A DNA stretch of 64,000 bases from Candidatus Kapaibacterium thiocyanatum (GCA_001899175.1 MKVH01000024.1:558001-622000), one strand, 5' to 3'. Shown: positions 53,687 through 64,000, numbered from the stretch's first letter. Made by a program: numbers and translations. The notes: a model not told the origin generated them from the sequence alone.

Positions 53687-56600
53687 TCACTCCATCATCA
53701 GCGTACCGATGTCGAGCGTCTGCTTGTTGCCGGTCAGCGGCAGCGTGATCGTCTTCTTCGTTTCGTTCGGCTTGCCGTAGTGCGTGTAGAGCTCGAGCTG
53801 TATCGTGGCGGGACCGCTCGCACGCTGACGGCTATTGCCGTAGTAGTTGGCCTGTACCTTGTAGGCACCTTTCGCCGCATTCTTCAGCAGGAATTCTTCG
53901 GGACCGTATCCGCCGGTCAGATCGCGTGAGATGCGTCCGCCGATGGTCGTTTCCCTGTGGCCATAGAAGCACTTCTCACCGCTGGGATCCGTGACCCACA
54001 TATCGACGTCCGTATTGTCGGCATCCCACGCGAGGACGATGCGCACGTCGACCGGCATGTTGCCGATGAATCTCGGATCGACGACCGTCGTGTCCACGGA
54101 CAATCCGTTCTTCGCGACGAGATGATTCAGTTCGTTGAGGGCGATCATCTCGACCTCGGGGAAGCGATTGTCCCACGGACGATCGACGACGGCGTAGAGA
54201 TAGCGGATGGCGTCGGGATATCGCTTCGCAGCGGCGAGTGCCAGACCGAGATCCCTGTACGATTGCGGTTCTTCGCCACGTATACGCAGGACGTCTTCGT
54301 ACATGAGGACTGCGAGGTCTGCATGCCCGAGTTGCAGCAGCCTGCCGGCAAGGACGCGCAGTTGCTCGTGATCCTCGGCCTTGAGCTCGGCGATATTGGA
54401 GAGGACGCGCAGGGCCTCGGCCAGTCTGCCCTTCGAGCGCAGGATGTCCGCGGCGTCGAGATAGAATTGCGGCGAGTTCTCGTACTGCGGCCTCAACGTC
54501 AGGTAGATACGGTAGGCATCGGCAGGCTTCGCAGCCTTCATCGCAGATAGATAGGACGTCGATGAATCGCTGTCGATCAGCATGATTCTGCCCGACGTGG
54601 TCGCGGCGGTGGCCTCCTTCTTGAATCGGTCCGTCGTTCCTTCACGGTTCTGCGGGGACTTCGCAGGCATCAGGGCATCGGACGATTCGGGGGCGGCGGG
54701 CAGAGGGGTGGTGAGTGCACGTGCCGTTTCCGTAAGCGTGACGTCGTCCGACCGCTGCGAGACTTCGGCTTCGACGACGGGCTCTGCCGCATTGCCCGAG
54801 CCCGCGGCGAATCCGTCGCTCAGTTGATCCGTGATTTCGACCGCTTGTGTGCGAACGACGGCACCGGACGCTCGGCTGCCGCGGATGTTGAAGCCGTTGC
54901 CCTTCACGGATGCTGCGGGCAGCGGACCTTCTCTATCCATAGCTCCATTGCTCTCGTAGAAGTCGATGACTCCACGCCGGAATCGCGCATCGACCGTTTG
55001 CTCATGGCCTGGCAGAACGGTGAGATTGGTCGAAACCGTGTCACGTACCGCTCCGCTCGCCGGCATGTTGATGCGGACGGTATAGTCGCCTGCCGGAACG
55101 TTCGTGATATAGTACGTGCCGTTATTTCTCGTGAGGCCACCTCGGGTGGTGCCGAGGATGCGAACGGTCGCACCGGAAACCGGTTTGCCGTCGGTGCCCG
55201 TGACGAGTCCGCGCAGGATACCGGTGGTTCCGTTCCTGATCTTGAGAGGAACGGGCGTCTTGAACGTGAAGGCCGTACTGTCCGGTTCACGCATCGGGAT
55301 GTCGGTGACCGGTGGTACATAGGGCTCGAAGACCCTGTCATACCACTCCTTGCGTTGATTCCACAGTGCGAGCATCTCTTCCTTGTGGAGCGATCGGCGG
55401 CGTACGCTGTCGTCCACGATACCCTTGCGGCGCTCCGTCCATTGTGCGAGGAGAGCGGGCTCGCTTGCGGGCGGTGCGATGTTGAAGCGAACGTAGTCCT
55501 CCAGTAGTTCCAGCACGATCAGCGACGTTCCCTGCGTGACGATGCCGAAGCGCTGTCCGATCGCGGTGATGGCCGCCTCGTTGCGTACGGGATCGGCGCC
55601 GTAACGGCCGAGTTCGCTGTGTGCCCAGAGACGCGCGACGGTCGTGCCCGAATCGAAGTCCTCGCGACCGGAGATACGGATGCGCTCGAGGCGTGCCGTG
55701 CCCGGACCGGATTCGAACTGAAGCTCGATCACGGCTTCGTCGGACTTCAGGATGCCACCTACGGTGATCATGTCGTTCGCGACCTGTCCTCCGACAGGGT
55801 AGAGGCCGTCGACGTCACCCTGTTCGACGCGAACGGACGCAAGGCGTACAGGACGATAGGCGAGAAGATCGACGGCATCGTCGATCGTGCCTTCGGCGAG
55901 ATTCAGATACGATCCGCCGCTGCGACGTGCGATGTCGGACAACGACGCATGATTGGCCGTCGTGCTGCTCGCGATGGTGATGACTTCGGCGTCGCCCGGC
56001 GGTGCCGATGCAGCGCCGAACGTCGATATGCCATCGGAGAAGAGCAGGTAGAGGTCCGTGCCTCCTCCTGCCAGTGGTGCGGTGGCGAACTGCGTACCGC
56101 CGTCGTAGACCATCGAACGCAGGGCCGTCCGCAGAGCGGACCAGTTGCCGGACGTGATCCTGAATTTCTGCACGGGCAGTGCACCGATGGCGAACGGTGC
56201 GAGTGTGACGTCGACGTTCGGATAGAGACGGAAGAGATTGTCGAGGACGTTCAGCTCCTTGTCGATGTCGCGCTTCATGCCCGAGAGCGAGGCATCCCAG
56301 GCGAGCGTGATACGGGACGGGGCGATACGGCGTGTCCGTTGCGACGGGATGCCGAGGAAGGTCGCGAAGTACTTCCGTCCGTCGAAGTCGTTGACGGCCG
56401 TGAATGTCTTTCCCGACGTCACGGGAATGAGACATTGGAACAGGCGGTCGATGACGGCATTCTCCAGATGCGTTTCCGCGTGGTAGGTACGGCCGTTCGG
56501 CGTGAAGTCGACGTCCTTCCAGTCGCTGCCGCTGAGGACGGGCCGTGTGCCGAAGGCCGCGACGTCCATGACGAAGGAGAACGTCCGCACCGTATCGGTG

Positions 56601-57109
56601 AAGGCGAAGGGCAGGGAATACAGATAGCCGTCCGACGAAGCGCGGAGTTGCTGTTCGTAGGCGATGACGATGCGGCGCGTTCCGTTGGCTGGAAGCGGAT
56701 AGATACGCGAGCGGAAGGTATTGCCGCGCGTCCATTCCATCAAGGCGGGATCGACCTTCCGCTTGATGATGGCCTCGAAGGTCGCACGCGCCTTCTCCTT
56801 CGGAACGACGACGCCATCACGGACGTGTCCATTGATGTCGAGGGCGAAGCGGCTGATCGTCTGTCCTTCCGTGATCGGGAACTCGAACTCGCCTTCGAGG
56901 ATGCGGGGGAACGGATTGTGGACCGTCATATCCATCGTCGTCACGGCCAGTGTGCCCGTGATGCGTACGGAGACGTCGAGCTTGACGACGCGCAGGGTTG
57001 TCGACGTTCCGTTCTCGTTGACGACGACACCGGGCATCGTCGATCGTTGTGCCGTGGCGAGGACGGGCAGGGAAGCAGCGAGGAGCAGTGCGAGGAAGAT
57101 CGTTTTCAT
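53687..57109 (-). CDS. Secreted VIT/vWA protein with carboxypeptidase-like, plug-like, TPR and DUF2135 segments
   Basis: This 1140-residue protein has a signal peptide (MKTIFLALLLAASLPVLATAQ). A VIT domain (about residues 25-160) contains VHNPFPRILEGEFEFPI and KEKARATFEAIIKRKVDPALMEW. A vWA-like domain (about 270-430) has an apparent MIDAS start DASLS. A carboxypeptidase regulatory-like Ig (about 640-730, GLVTGTDGKPVSGATVRILG) is followed by a short stretch resembling a TonB-receptor plug (GFNIRGSRASGAVVRT, then DQLSDGF). TPR-like helices (about 890-1000) come next, and a C-terminal DUF2135 domain (about 1030-1140, VLAWDADNTDVDMWVTDPSG). I see no T9SS tail. It is 16 bases after the anti-sigma-like gene and is probably its co-transcribed partner. 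Confidence 0.85.
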   Translation of the reverse strand: MKTIFLALLLAASLPVLATAQRSTMPGVVVNENGTSTTLRVVKLDVSVRITGTLAVTTMDMTVHNPFPRILEGEFEFPITEGQTISRFALDINGHVRDGVVVPKEKARATFEAIIKRKVDPALMEWTRGNTFRSRIYPLPANGTRRIVIAYEQQLRASSDGYLYSLPFAFTDTVRTFSFVMDVAAFGTRPVLSGSDWKDVDFTPNGRTYHAETHLENAVIDRLFQCLIPVTSGKTFTAVNDFDGRKYFATFLGIPSQRTRRIAPSRITLAWDASLSGMKRDIDKELNVLDNLFRLYPNVDVTLAPFAIGALPVQKFRITSGNWSALRTALRSMVYDGGTQFATAPLAGGGTDLYLLFSDGISTFGAASAPPGDAEVITIASSTTANHASLSDIARRSGGSYLNLAEGTIDDAVDLLAYRPVRLASVRVEQGDVDGLYPVGGQVANDMITVGGILKSDEAVIELQFESGPGTARLERIRISGREDFDSGTTVARLWAHSELGRYGADPVRNEAAITAIGQRFGIVTQGTSLIVLELLEDYVRFNIAPPASEPALLAQWTERRKGIVDDSVRRRSLHKEEMLALWNQRKEWYDRVFEPYVPPVTDIPMREPDSTAFTFKTPVPLKIRNGTTGILRGLVTGTDGKPVSGATVRILGTTRGGLTRNNGTYYITNVPAGDYTVRINMPASGAVRDTVSTNLTVLPGHEQTVDARFRRGVIDFYESNGAMDREGPLPAASVKGNGFNIRGSRASGAVVRTQAVEITDQLSDGFAAGSGNAAEPVVEAEVSQRSDDVTLTETARALTTPLPAAPESSDALMPAKSPQNREGTTDRFKKEATAATTSGRIMLIDSDSSTSYLSAMKAAKPADAYRIYLTLRPQYENSPQFYLDAADILRSKGRLAEALRVLSNIAELKAEDHEQLRVLAGRLLQLGHADLAVLMYEDVLRIRGEEPQSYRDLGLALAAAKRYPDAIRYLYAVVDRPWDNRFPEVEMIALNELNHLVAKNGLSVDTTVVDPRFIGNMPVDVRIVLAWDADNTDVDMWVTDPSGEKCFYGHRETTIGGRISRDLTGGYGPEEFLLKNAAKGAYKVQANYYGNSRQRASGPATIQLELYTHYGKPNETKKTITLPLTGNKQTLDIGTLMME

Positions 57110-57125
57110 GATGATGCTCCTTGAA

Positions 57126-58214
57126 TCAGCGTTGGATGAGAAGTCGTTGGATCATGCGGTCCGCCCGGCCGTCTGCCTGGATGACGACGAGGTACATGCC
57201 CGCTGCTGCGTCGTCGAGTCCGGTGATCGGTATCCGGTGCTGTCCGCGTTGCATGCTGCGTGCATTCCAGAGCGTGGCGATCTCCCGGCCGTTCATGTCG
57301 ACGACGATGGCCGAGGTGGTGAGGTCCGACCGCAGGTCGAGATTCAGCATGGCCGTGCCGGACGTCAACGGATTGGGAGAGATGGTCGCAGCGCCGAAGA
57401 GCGTCGTCGTCTGCCGTTGGGTAAAGTCGTCGACGGCCTTGGTATAGCGGGACGGGAGCAGCGGCCGGTGCGGATCGGCGACGGCGGCGGCATCGAACCA
57501 CAGCACCGCATAGGTCCGTGCGTCGGGCGTGAGCGGGATGCGGATGCCGATCATGTCGTTGACGGACGTGACCAGACGCGTCGTCTTCGTCTGCTGTACT
57601 GCATCGCGTCGTTCGGCATCGTCCTTGTTCCACCATGAGGCATGGATGTCGTTCCCATGATAGAGCTGGACCATGCGTGCATAGGGGGGAACGGGGCCAT
57701 CCTCCGGCGAATCATGCCGGCGTGCTCCGATACCGTTGGTGCGGATGGTGACGATGTCCTCGTTCTGCCGATATCGGATGCGGTCACCTTGTACGTCCAG
57801 GCCGAGGCGTTGCAATTCCGCCCGGCTCAGTTCCATCGTCGGAATGGTCATTGCGGATCCGTTCGATTCGTCCGCCGAGGCGGTAGCAGGGGCAGGGAGC
57901 GGAACCGTCTTGTTCGCCGGGATCGCCGGAGGTGTATGGGCATCGGTGACGTTCCCCCGTTCCGCCGCAGCGTGTGAGGCGGCAGGCGGAGTGAGCGGTT
58001 CGGGGGCATCCGGCCACAAGGCGATGGTGGCTACCGTAGCCGCGGCGGCCAGGCTACCGGTGATGATCCACGGTATGGACGTCGGTTGTGCGGTGGGAGG
58101 GGGGGGCGACTGCAGGAGGGACCGTACGTCGCTTTCGGACAGTAGCGGCGTCGAGGGAGGGGCCTCGTCCTTCAGGGCCTGTAGTGTCGAGCGGAGTGAT
58201 TGGTTCGGATTCAT
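57126..58214 (-). CDS. Anti-sigma-like single-TM protein with C-terminal T9SS sorting domain
   Basis: This 362-residue protein has a short cytoplasmic N-terminal part (LRSTLQALKDEAPPSTPLLSE), one membrane helix (about residues 48-66, PWIITGSLAAAATVATIAL), a long extracytoplasmic middle rich in Pro, Ala and Thr with a strand-rich end, and a C-terminal type IX sorting domain (ISPNPLTSGTAMLNLDL, then GREIATLWN, then AAGMYLVVIQADGRADRMI). Position directly after an ECF sigma gene is typical of an anti-sigma factor. A GTG at 58241 overlapping the sigma stop (GTGA) is an alternative start. A sorting tail on an inner-membrane protein is unexpected. Confidence 0.7.
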   Translation of the reverse strand: MNPNQSLRSTLQALKDEAPPSTPLLSESDVRSLLQSPPPPTAQPTSIPWIITGSLAAAATVATIALWPDAPEPLTPPAASHAAAERGNVTDAHTPPAIPANKTVPLPAPATASADESNGSAMTIPTMELSRAELQRLGLDVQGDRIRYRQNEDIVTIRTNGIGARRHDSPEDGPVPPYARMVQLYHGNDIHASWWNKDDAERRDAVQQTKTTRLVTSVNDMIGIRIPLTPDARTYAVLWFDAAAVADPHRPLLPSRYTKAVDDFTQRQTTTLFGAATISPNPLTSGTAMLNLDLRSDLTTSAIVVDMNGREIATLWNARSMQRGQHRIPITGLDDAAAGMYLVVIQADGRADRMIQRLLIQR

Positions 58215-58237
58215 GACGGATTCCACTGTAGTCGTGA

Positions 58238-58795
58238 TCACAGGAGTTGGGTGGTCGGGAAGGCCTGGGGCACCGTTTCGGGAACGGGGAGATCGTCGTG
58301 AATGCCGAGCCGGTCGGCCAGCATCCGCCGTGCGCGCATCAGGCGTACCTTGACGCCGCTGACCGTGCCGCCCTGGACGCGTTGTATTTCCGTGACGCTC
58401 AGGCCGTTGATCTCGAACAGCACCAGGGCCTCGCGATACTTGTGTGGCAGCGTCTGGAGCGCCTCACGGACGAGTGAAAGTTCGGTGCTCCGTTCGGGCG
58501 AAGGAGTGGAGGACTCGAGTGTTTCCTGAAGTTCCTCGCTGTAGAGGCCGAAGAACTTCGCCCGCACGAACTTGCGCTTGTACATGTTGGAGGCGATCGT
58601 GAACACGTAGCTCTTGAATGCTGCGTGGTCGCGCAGGGTATCGAAATGCTGCCATGCGGCGAGAATCGTGTCCTGCATGAGGTCCCGGGCTGCGTCCGTG
58701 TCGCGGGTCATGTTCAGTGCGAACTTCTCCAGCCTTGCCTGCACGGGGCGCAGGAGGTCCATGAACTCCTGCTGCCGGTCGTACGTCTCGTCCAT
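58238..58795 (-). CDS. ECF-type RNA polymerase sigma factor
   Basis: This 185-residue sigma factor has region 2 at about residues 15-90 (EKFALNMTRDTDAARDLMQDTILAAWQHFD, then FKSYVFTIASNMYKRKF) and region 4 at about 115-175 (LQTLPHKYREALVLFEINGLSVTEIQRVQGGTVSGVKVRLMRARRML), with no region 3, as in ECF sigmas. I use the ATG at 58795 (MDETYDRQQ); an ATG at 58825 is equally open and adds a histidine-rich decapeptide. It heads the operon with the anti-sigma-like gene and the VIT protein gene. Confidence 0.88.
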   Translation of the reverse strand: MDETYDRQQEFMDLLRPVQARLEKFALNMTRDTDAARDLMQDTILAAWQHFDTLRDHAAFKSYVFTIASNMYKRKFVRAKFFGLYSEELQETLESSTPSPERSTELSLVREALQTLPHKYREALVLFEINGLSVTEIQRVQGGTVSGVKVRLMRARRMLADRLGIHDDLPVPETVPQAFPTTQLL

Positions 58796-58878
58796 ACCGT
58801 TCCCGTTCGTGTGATGGTGATTCATGCCGTGGGAGGCACGACGCCCGCAGGCGGTTACATCGGTCCTGCGATCCTGCA

Positions 58879-58910
58879 CAAAAAAGAAAAGGGCACCCGC
58901 GGGTGCCCTT
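58879..58910 (-). terminator. Rho-independent terminator of the lipoprotein gene
   Basis: On the minus strand AAGGGCACCC, GC, GGGTGCCCTT forms an 11-bp self-complementary stem followed by TTCTTTTTTG, placed 24 bases after the stop codon at 58934. It separates this gene from the sigma-factor operon. Confidence 0.9.
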
Positions 58911-58933
58911 CCGGAATCGTCGTGATGGTGTGC

Positions 58934-61534: not shown

Positions 61535-61692
61535 GACTATACCTCGTTTGGACCTGAGTAAGTTTGAACCGCTGTCCGGGAACACGTGGACGTGCCATCG
61601 GGACGCAGGCTACAGAAAATACGGAACTCGCGCCTCGCAATGCGACGACGGATCCATTCACGACGATCATCAACAACAATATCGAATCGATC

Positions 61693-62478
61693 ATGCCTCT
61701 CACCGGATATCGCGCACTCGTCTGCGGTGCATCGAAAGGAATCGGCAGAGCTTCTGCGGAACGTCTCGCACAACTGGGGGCGTCCGTGACCACGCTCGCC
61801 CGGACGGAGTCGGCACTGGCCGACGTCATCGCCACGCTGGATACGTCGAAAGGCCAGGTCCATTCGATGGTCGTCGCCGATGTCACACGACCCGACGAGC
61901 TTGTCCACAGTGTTCAGAATCACGTGGATAACGTAGGCGCAATCCACATCTGTGTGAATAACACGGCAGGACCGGCCGGTGGAAAACTCATCGACGCGAA
62001 GCCGGAACAACTCCTGGAAGCATTTTCCAATCATATACTTATAGCTCATCGTCTGACGTCGGTTCTCGTCCCTGGAATGAAGGCCGCGGGCTACGGCCGC
62101 ATTGTCAACATCATATCCACATCGGTCAAACAGCCGATCGAAGGGCTCGGTGTGAGCAATACCATCAGGGGGGCGATGGCATCGTGGTCCAAGACGCTCG
62201 CGACGGAACTGGCGCCGTACGGAATCACCGTGACGAACGTATTGCCTGGGGCGACGGAGACGGAGCGGCTCACCCAGATCATCGACCGGAAGGCCGAGGG
62301 GGCGAGGATCGCGGTCGATGACGTCAGACAGGAGATGCTGGACGAGATTCCGGCGGGCCGTTTCGCCCGCCCGGAAGAGATCGCGAATGCCGTCGGTTTT
62401 CTCGCCTTGCCGATGTCCGGCTACATCACCGGAACCAGTATCCTGGTGGATGGTGGGCGTACCAGGGCTCTCTCCTGA
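61693..62478 (+). CDS. Atypical SDR family oxidoreductase lacking the YxxxK pair
   Basis: This 261-residue Rossmann protein has the NAD(P) site CGASKGIGRASAERLAQLGA (residues 12-31) and the NNTAG motif. The C-terminal end YITGTSILVDGGRT is typical of FabG-like SDRs. At the catalytic site the expected S...YxxxK is replaced: the segment aligned with VNISS...YSASK reads VNIIS...SNTIR, so Tyr becomes Ser and Lys becomes Arg. Normal reductase activity is therefore doubtful. It is divergent from the kynurenine-pathway genes and its link to them is only positional. The ATG at 61693 is used. Confidence 0.85.
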   Translation: MPLTGYRALVCGASKGIGRASAERLAQLGASVTTLARTESALADVIATLDTSKGQVHSMVVADVTRPDELVHSVQNHVDNVGAIHICVNNTAGPAGGKLIDAKPEQLLEAFSNHILIAHRLTSVLVPGMKAAGYGRIVNIISTSVKQPIEGLGVSNTIRGAMASWSKTLATELAPYGITVTNVLPGATETERLTQIIDRKAEGARIAVDDVRQEMLDEIPAGRFARPEEIANAVGFLALPMSGYITGTSILVDGGRTRALS

Positions 62479-62480
62479 GT

Positions 62481-62695
62481 TTCTCCACGTGATGTGGATA
62501 ACTTGTTCTGAAATGGGGCTATCATGAATGGTCCTTCGTTTGTTTCTTCCACACGAACGCTCTAGTTTTGCGGTGGTCGTAAGCCGTTGCACTGTGCAAG
62601 GATATCGACCAAAAGCACGGGAAACCGAGCTTGAGGGTAGGAGACGAGGCTTGAAGTTTTCCACAGGTGTGTGAATTTCAGTCGAGTTTTCCACA
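62481..62695. promoter_or_regulatory. DnaA-box cluster around the ftsQ promoter
   Basis: Three 9-mers fit the DnaA box TTWTCCACA: TGTGGATAA at 62493-62501 (perfect, minus orientation), TTTTCCACA at 62657-62665, and TTTTCCACA at 62687-62695. A weaker site, TTCTCCACG, is at 62481-62489. The promoter of ftsQ lies between them. The last two boxes border the ftsQ start region. Confidence 0.5.
62540..62570 (+). promoter_or_regulatory. Bacteroidota-type promoter of ftsQ-ftsA
   Basis: TTG (62540-62542), exactly 20 bases, then TAGTTTTG (62563-62570): a full match to TTG-N19..21-TAnnTTTG, the best in the window. Transcription would start near 62576, leaving a leader of about 95-135 bases. Confidence 0.7.
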
Positions 62696-63504
62696 ACGCG
62701 AGGCATGCAGTGACGGCAAGAGGAAGAGGCCAGCGCCAACGTCAGCACGCACCCCACCCGGGGACGGAGCAGCAGGCCGGAGTACGACGTCGTGCTCCGG
62801 GATTGGTCGTCGCGCTCCTGGCAGTCGTCTTCCTGGCATTGGTGGCAAGCCAGTGGCAGGGTCGGCAGGCGATCGGGAGGGTGATCATCACCGGTGCTTC
62901 GGGATTGAGTCTGGCGGCGGTGCACATGGTGGTGGACACGCTGGCCGACAAGTCGGTGCGATCGATCTCGCTGGCCGACGTCCGCGAAGTCGTCGAGCGA
63001 CTGCCTTACGTCCGTTCGGCATCCGTGCACCTGTCCGGAGTTCGGGACATCACCGTCGATGTGCAGGAACGTCTTCCCGTTGCCCATATCGTCGTCCAGG
63101 GCGGCGAGCTGCGCTACGTCGACGCCGAAGGCACGGTACTTCCGCCCGCATCGATCCGTACGGGCCATAATGTTCCGATCCTCCAGTCGTCGCAAGGTGA
63201 CACGTTGTCGAAGGCCGACGTCCGTACGCTGGCTGCGATGCTGGTGGCGGCGGCGCAGAATCTCGACCCGGTTCTCTATCAGTCGATTTCCGAAGTGCGC
63301 CTCGACGGTGCACGCCAGCAGGCCATCGTCACCACGGACGAAGCGGTATGGCGACTGCCGATCCGCGACGTCGCCGTCGCACGGCAGGCCTTGGCGGATA
63401 TGGATCTGTTCTGGAAACGGACGTCGACACGGCTCGACATGACTACCGTCAACGAAATCGATCTTCGCTGGCGCAACCAAGTGATCGTACGCTACAAGGG
63501 ATGA
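62671..63504 (+). CDS. ftsQ: Cell division protein FtsQ/DivIB
   Basis: FtsQ is a bitopic division protein that links early (FtsZ/FtsA) and late divisome parts. The long form (277 residues) has a basic Gln/Arg-rich cytoplasmic tail, a membrane segment at about residues 45-63 (LVVALLAVVFLALVAS), and then a POTRA domain (about 68-140, IGRVIITGASGLSL and YVRSASVHLSGVRDITVDVQERLPVA) and the C-terminal beta domain. The GTG at 62671 is the longest choice; a GTG at 62710 has GAGG eight bases upstream and may be the true start. It is followed by ftsA after seven bases. Confidence 0.88.
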   Translation: MNFSRVFHNARHAVTARGRGQRQRQHAPHPGTEQQAGVRRRAPGLVVALLAVVFLALVASQWQGRQAIGRVIITGASGLSLAAVHMVVDTLADKSVRSISLADVREVVERLPYVRSASVHLSGVRDITVDVQERLPVAHIVVQGGELRYVDAEGTVLPPASIRTGHNVPILQSSQGDTLSKADVRTLAAMLVAAAQNLDPVLYQSISEVRLDGARQQAIVTTDEAVWRLPIRDVAVARQALADMDLFWKRTSTRLDMTTVNEIDLRWRNQVIVRYKG

Positions 63505-63511
63505 CACTGCA

Positions 63512-64000
63512 ATGAATTCGACGAACATCTACGTCGGGCTCGACATCGGTACCACGAAGGTGTGTGCCGTCGTCGCCGCGTCCGACCCGGTGACGCGGCG
63601 TACCGACATCCTCGGTACGGGGATGTCGGAGTGTGAAGGATTGAAGCGGGGCGTCGTCACCAACATCAACAAGACCGCCGAAGCGATCCGCAAGGCCGTC
63701 GAAAAGGCCGAACAGCAATCCGGTATCAGCATCAGGCGTGTCGTCATCGGCATCGCGGGTGACCATATCTCGTCGTTCATCACACGCGGTATCGTCACGA
63801 TCTCGTCGCCCACGCGCGAGATCAGCGGGGCTGACGTCAGGCGTCTGCTCGACGATGTCCGCAAGGTGAAGATCGACGGCGACCGGCGCATCCTGCACGT
63901 GATACCGCAGGACTTCATCATCGACGGACAGGACGGCATCACCGATCCGGTGGGAATGAGCGGCATCCGTCTCGAGGCGAACGTCCTCGTCATCACTGGA
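63512..64000 (+). CDS. ftsA: Cell division protein FtsA (N-terminal part, cut by the window end)
   Basis: FtsA is the actin-like protein that tethers FtsZ to the membrane. The visible 163 codons have the phosphate-1 motif YVGLDIGTTKVCAVVA (residues 6-21), followed by GLKRGVVTNINKTAEAIRKAVEKAE and RRVVIGIAGDHISSF, which match FtsA subdomains 1A and 1C. It is open to the end of the window with no stop, and ftsZ probably follows outside it. It starts seven bases after ftsQ. Confidence 0.93.
   Translation, partial: MNSTNIYVGLDIGTTKVCAVVAASDPVTRRTDILGTGMSECEGLKRGVVTNINKTAEAIRKAVEKAEQQSGISIRRVVIGIAGDHISSFITRGIVTISSPTREISGADVRRLLDDVRKVKIDGDRRILHVIPQDFIIDGQDGITDPVGMSGIRLEANVLVITG

Follow-up and report, generated by a model that had tools for sequence, protein, structure and literature searches.

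T9SS sorting tags normally serve the shipment of proteins to the cell surface; what, then, would such a tag do at the end of a regulator anchored in the membrane beside a sigma factor gene? The question is raised by a locus in a 64,000-nt stretch of Candidatus Kapaibacterium thiocyanatum (GCA_001899175.1 MKVH01000024.1:558001-622000), here called the window, within which all coordinates are counted. Three genes follow one another on its minus strand: an ECF sigma factor gene (58238 to 58795; 185 aa), a middle gene with its ATG at 58214 (57126 to 58214; 362 aa), which encodes a candidate T9SS-tailed anti-sigma factor with a single transmembrane (TM) helix, and a gene for an exported VIT/vWA(MIDAS)/CarboxypepD_reg/TPR/DUF2135 protein of 1,140 aa (53687 to 57109). 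The original prediction had described three minus-strand genes separated by at most 23 bases, and the open reading frames lie exactly so, 23 and 16 bases apart. An intrinsic terminator-like hairpin of 11 pairs (58887 to 58912, minus strand) is located between an upstream lipoprotein gene and the operon. Elsewhere in the window, a 663-aa open frame (61537 to 63528) had no Pfam match.

The first gene encodes an ECF sigma factor, as predicted, with sigma regions 2 and 4 only in about 180 aa (Pfam Sigma70_r2, 5.9e-11; Sigma70_r4_2, 3.5e-12). The product matched TIGR02937 with 64.7 bits against a cut-off of 42.9 (NCBIfam), and the NCBIfam sigma subfamilies among the matches listed for it were all below their own cut-offs. 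Phylogenetic trees placed the sigma factors linked to tailed proteins on one branch, separate from the other ECF sigma factors of the genome (support, 94/97 and 100/99). Three sigma factors of this clade are encoded in the genome of the window, well apart from 16 other ECF sigma factors, and a tailed protein directly follows all three of them and none of the 16. A sigma-first census of other genomes found a tailed protein after 10 of 13 resolved clade sigma genes and a barrel-ended protein after 3, giving overall 13 tailed and 3 predicted-barrel neighbors among 16 resolved clade sigma genes; one further clade sigma gene, cut by a contig end, is outside the 16. Since tailed cases were mostly collected via the tail, this sigma-first count is the less biased one. 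Together with the 36 sigma-linked examples that were read, three of them in the genome of the window, it indicates that the tail, which the original prediction had called odd on a membrane-anchored regulator, is no peculiarity of this locus.

The second gene does encode the predicted single-TM protein with a T9SS tail in the anti-sigma position, with one predicted TM helix and a match to TIGR04183. The predicted cytoplasmic segment (residues 1 to 47; 58074 to 58214) contains a PLLSExDI motif that is conserved among close relatives and, in the AlphaFold model, two short helices, at residues 7 to 17 and 27 to 35. A search for a zinc or helical anti-sigma domain had been suggested for this segment; no zinc motif was found in residues 1 to 47, and the segment did not match any known anti-sigma domain family. 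It is followed by the predicted TM helix (residues 48 to 67; 58014 to 58073), a predicted disordered tether (residues 68 to 124; 57843 to 58013), an ectodomain with a hinge (residues 125 to 270; 57405 to 57842), and a beta sandwich resembling a T9SS type A sorting domain (residues 271 to 362; 57129 to 57404), all encoded on the minus strand. The pLDDT was <50 across nearly all of residues 42 to 119, and the mean pairwise identity in residues 68 to 124 was 13%.

The same plan recurs throughout the sigma-linked set. All 35 proteins tabulated have 40 to 119 residues before a single TM helix and a C-terminal tail, and L313 is a further sigma-linked tailed case outside the 35. The 15 residues preceding the TM helix contain on average 2.7 lysine or arginine residues, and the 15 residues following it contain 1.1. 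The TM helix of the window protein itself is weak (mean hydropathy, 1.63) and has no lysine or arginine within 15 residues on either side. A gene beside a sigma gene and an N-terminal segment before one TM helix, the marks of a transmembrane anti-sigma factor, were found in 35 members by predicted topology. The middle protein would bind the sigma factor and have an N-in orientation. Two further loci were noted. In one tailed anti-sigma protein (L076:3264-4919), the TM helix and the tail are separated by a TonB C-terminal domain (PF03544, 4.6e-17), and in one genome (L078:1253-10735) two pairs of sigma factor and tailed anti-sigma genes are encoded on opposite strands, with about 3 kb between them.

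The gene order sigma-middle-VIT is conserved. It is present in 11 of 23 genomes of the family, namely, that of the window and ten others (L031-L039 and L041), or 10 of the 22 other family genomes, and it recurs in two other families (L042, L072, L083, and L084), so that a search for the order in related genomes, suggested with the original prediction, was answered positively. In two of these loci, L039 and L041, the three genes are inverted between the same flanking genes, which indicates that the block moved as a unit, without the upstream lipoprotein gene or the PD40 gene. The 11 of 23 family genomes that have the VIT gene are also those with a close middle-gene orthologue. In G006, a divergent middle gene at the end of a contig is all that is present, and neither a VIT gene nor a sigma gene of the clade accompanies it.

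Could the middle protein instead be ordinary T9SS cargo, with its hydrophobic segment serving as a signal peptide with a long n-region and the sigma gene as a chance neighbor? The original prediction had itself named the use of the TM segment as a signal peptide as a point against it, and such a use was met only in orthologues without an adjoining sigma gene. These sigma-less orthologues (L043, L073, L074, and L201) consist of a plain signal peptide, the ectodomain, and the tail, with a VIT gene as neighbor, and they are the evidence in favor of a cargo origin. Proteins beside the sigma gene, however, keep their 40 to 119 residues before the TM helix without exception, share the conserved motif among close relatives, and come with a conserved gene order and a co-occurring sigma clade. 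In the window protein, about 47 residues with the conserved motif precede the hydrophobic segment, so that the protein does not appear to begin with the Sec signal peptide expected of T9SS cargo. The conserved N-terminal segment led us to reject the cargo explanation, which we regard as very improbable. Searches with the middle protein retrieved many proteins with a related N-terminal segment and tail; the matches opened within the class lay directly downstream of a related sigma gene or, in a few cases, were sigma-less, and those opened outside the class (best three candidates per genome) proved to be ordinary cargo, and none of them adjoined a clade sigma gene. The sigma-less orthologues form one clade (support, 97/97), implying that the link between the sigma factor and the N-terminal segment was one event rather than several. 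Their structure agrees with a role of the N-terminal segment in sigma binding, and it suggests a link of the ectodomain and tail with the VIT protein. At L073:981-4490, the VIT gene is split by a stop into two frames, through either decay of the gene or an error in the assembly.

By descent, the tail itself is a sorting domain, and it may have become specialized. Residues 278 to 350 scored 24.6 bits (cut-off, 23) with the NCBIfam model TIGR04183 (T9SS type A), and 19 of 20 family members matched this model at an E value of ≤0.01. A profile search of the PDB returned only two matches, and each of them is a T9SS sorting domain (8glj, E = 0.028; PorU, E = 0.08). The tail was modeled confidently by AlphaFold and aligned to the sorting domains of PorU, PorZ, and mirolase; it also aligned to many Ig-like domains, and the fold searches with the middle protein in effect covered the tail only. 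The core sorting-domain residues PNP, G, and GxY are retained in anti-sigma tails, which stand at the extreme C terminus, with PNP 78 to 83 residues before the last residue in almost every case. In a comparison with 20 tails of cargo encoded in the same genome, the anti-sigma tails separated fully (support, 0.948), although most of the tails compared were gathered by profile and their mutual likeness is therefore partly selected. They have a near-invariant arginine in the last strand that is absent from the cargo tails of the genome of the window, and recognition by the T9SS may accordingly have been lost or altered.

This separation and the near-invariant arginine lend weight to a different reading, in which the sigma/anti-sigma operon stands but the tail, although descended from a T9SS domain, is only a periplasmic module of the Ig-like kind. 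Its ligand would be the VIT protein or the cell wall, and it would at no time engage the T9SS or the outer membrane. That the fold is a common Ig-like sandwich, and that the ectodomain and tail remain with the VIT gene where the sigma gene is absent, would also fit a periplasmic module. The retained PNP, G, and GxY residues and the extreme C-terminal position speak against it, as do the tail-less members of the sigma clade, which end in a predicted outer membrane barrel and so point to a role at the outer membrane; on this evidence, we consider a purely periplasmic tail rather unlikely. The three tail-less neighbors (L314, L315, and L317) have the same plan as the tailed proteins, with a predicted outer membrane barrel as the C terminus, and fall inside the same sigma clade in the tree; their C termini had no Pfam or NCBIfam barrel match. 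The original prediction would have been weakened by relatives lacking the tail or the VIT gene: relatives without the VIT gene are common and have other partners, and the tail-less relatives are these three barrel-ended cases.

The third gene encodes a protein for which VIT, vWA, plug-like, and DUF2135 regions had been proposed. Pfam supported VIT (4.6e-25) and DUF2135 (9e-16) and added CarboxypepD_reg (6.8e-12), with no vWA match and no plug match in the "plug-like" stretch of the window protein. A vWA domain is nevertheless supported by the AlphaFold model, which matched inter-alpha-inhibitor heavy chain 1 (6fpy; Foldseek E = 2.7e-20), and by an invariant D272-x-S274-x-S276. VIT-TPR-DUF2135 proteins are the third gene product in the subclade of the window, and the third gene differs in other subclades: other VIT-vWA proteins (L075, L079, and L085, two of them with an outer membrane barrel), DUF1573 proteins (L138 in the genome of the window, L086, and L197), a trypsin-like protein (L087), and kelch or BNR propellers (L200 and L202). 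Regulators of this kind are thus found with VIT-vWA proteins of two different families. In L079:3048-6791 and L085:5018-7783, VIT and vWA are joined to an outer membrane barrel beside the sigma factor and tailed anti-sigma genes, and the L079 protein carries a TonB plug (Pfam Plug, 1.1e-6) in addition to the barrel. VIT as a universal partner was rejected because of the other third genes and because VIT is widespread in other phyla without the sigma or middle gene. The VIT protein, proposed earlier as the regulated or sensed partner, is therefore a conserved apparent partner of the sigma/anti-sigma pair, and a subclade-specific one, with many relatives having no VIT protein.

A predicted autoregulated ECF promoter, TGTAACC-N16-nCTC (58833 to 58859, minus strand), lies about 60 nt upstream of the sigma start codon. 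GTAAC was present upstream of all 14 sigma genes of the VIT subclade, and GTAAC-N16/17-nCTC was present upstream of 12 of the 14 (resampled mean, 0.05). Across 10 genomes, the pattern was recurrent only at the sigma gene itself, and no recurrent sharing of it by T9SS genes and cargo was found; the strict pattern occurred twice in the genome of the window, at the sigma gene and inside reading frames. The simplest reading of these sequences would be local autoregulation, with the operon and so the VIT protein as the output. A T9SS-wide, SigP-like regulon had no support, the strict pattern being recurrent only at the sigma gene, although a looser motif could hide one. These results bear on the proposal that the tail competes with cargo for the T9SS and that the sigma factor is set free when the TM-anchored protein is engaged or pulled, which would serve as a readout of secretion capacity. 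Such a load sensor would draw on a tail that passes the type A model, on the SprA, PorU, and three PorV-family proteins encoded in the genome, and on P. gingivalis, where the sorting-domain protein PorA feeds into PorXY-SigP from upstream (PMC7712824). With a promoter that is not recurrently shared by any T9SS gene or cargo and a tail unlike cargo tails, we judge it improbable.

We favor, with moderate confidence, a self-contained signaling operon with an envelope-spanning anti-sigma factor docked at the outer membrane by its T9SS-type tail. The cytoplasmic two-helix segment would hold the sigma factor, the predicted TM helix would anchor the protein in the inner membrane, and the predicted disordered tether would cross the periplasm. 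The C-terminal domain would dock at the outer membrane, where T9SS components, for instance PorV-family proteins, are its probable binding partners. The exported VIT protein, a product of the operon, would be the likely extracytoplasmic partner. A disturbance of the docked complex, through the state of the outer membrane or T9SS or through loss or engagement of the VIT protein, may release the sigma factor. Transcription of the operon by its own sigma factor would then start at the TGTAACC-N16-nCTC promoter and renew the supply of VIT protein. Docking at the outer membrane is argued for most strongly by the finding that members of a single sigma clade have either a tail or a predicted barrel, taken with the precedent of the Dma anti-sigma factors. 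The locus is a real, conserved system, probably with an envelope-spanning anti-sigma factor whose outer end is the T9SS domain. More tentatively, the T9SS domain may be the outer membrane end of the anti-sigma factor across the whole ECF clade, interchangeable with a beta-barrel, with the state of the T9SS or the surface gating transcription of a partner surface protein directly. In Kapabacteria, a family of gene switches appears to be kept off by a membrane protein that bears a surface-export tag at its end, and this suggests that the tag tells the cell about the condition of its outer surface. The question touched is how Bacteroidota-type cells sense outer-surface state and T9SS secretion, and a testable direct link from T9SS or outer membrane state to a sigma factor would explain a sorting domain on a membrane-anchored regulator.

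Among known systems, the closest precedent is that of the Dma anti-sigma factors, which the original prediction had not named. Dma2 is a dual-membrane-spanning anti-sigma factor with an outer membrane beta-barrel, and dma2, like the middle gene here, lies in a three-gene operon (PMC13088901). Shared features are an N-terminal segment that would bind the sigma factor, one TM helix, a long disordered tether, a C-terminal outer membrane module, and an adjoining ECF sigma gene. Unlike Dma, the window protein has a T9SS type A domain in place of the barrel, an extra folded ectodomain, and a VIT or other partner gene; the sigma partners of Dma belong to the ECF21 group. By the barrel criterion, the middle protein is not a Dma member; by analogy, it probably works like one. 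Six other ECF sigma genes in the same genome precede genes for TM proteins with an outer-membrane-barrel-like C terminus, that is, Dma-like anti-sigma factors (L142:4118-5350, L143:1727-2983, L145:4329-5657, L146:4437-5693, L147:2055-3386, and L151:2027-3274), with no barrel match in Pfam (six scanned) or NCBIfam (five scanned).

M0N98_03760 of Phocaeicola vulgatus is likewise a large anti-sigma factor predicted to span the periplasm with its C terminus in the outer membrane, and it likely answers envelope stress (PMC9308784); it ends in a barrel rather than a sorting domain, and a VIT partner is not described for it. PorA of P. gingivalis is a T9SS sorting-domain surface protein that feeds ECF sigma signaling via PorXY-SigP, and its sorting domain can stay uncleaved (PMC7712824); unlike the window protein, it acts through a two-component system and not as a TM anti-sigma factor. 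The analogy with FecIR drawn originally is poor: an ECF sigma factor and a single-TM anti-sigma factor with an extracytoplasmic partner are common to both, but the locus has no FecR domain (Pfam) and no TonB receptor, and the third gene encodes a VIT/DUF2135 protein without a barrel and with only a plug-like stretch. T9SS type A cargo shares the C-terminal sorting-domain fold and core motifs and differs in having an ordinary signal peptide, where the window protein has a predicted TM anchor after a 47-residue N-terminal segment, and in its last strand. In the literature searched, with most subscription journals outside its scope, no T9SS-tailed anti-sigma factor was named. Envelope-spanning anti-sigma factors with beta-barrels were already known; new here is a secretion tag in a similar plan, with many members and swappable partner genes.
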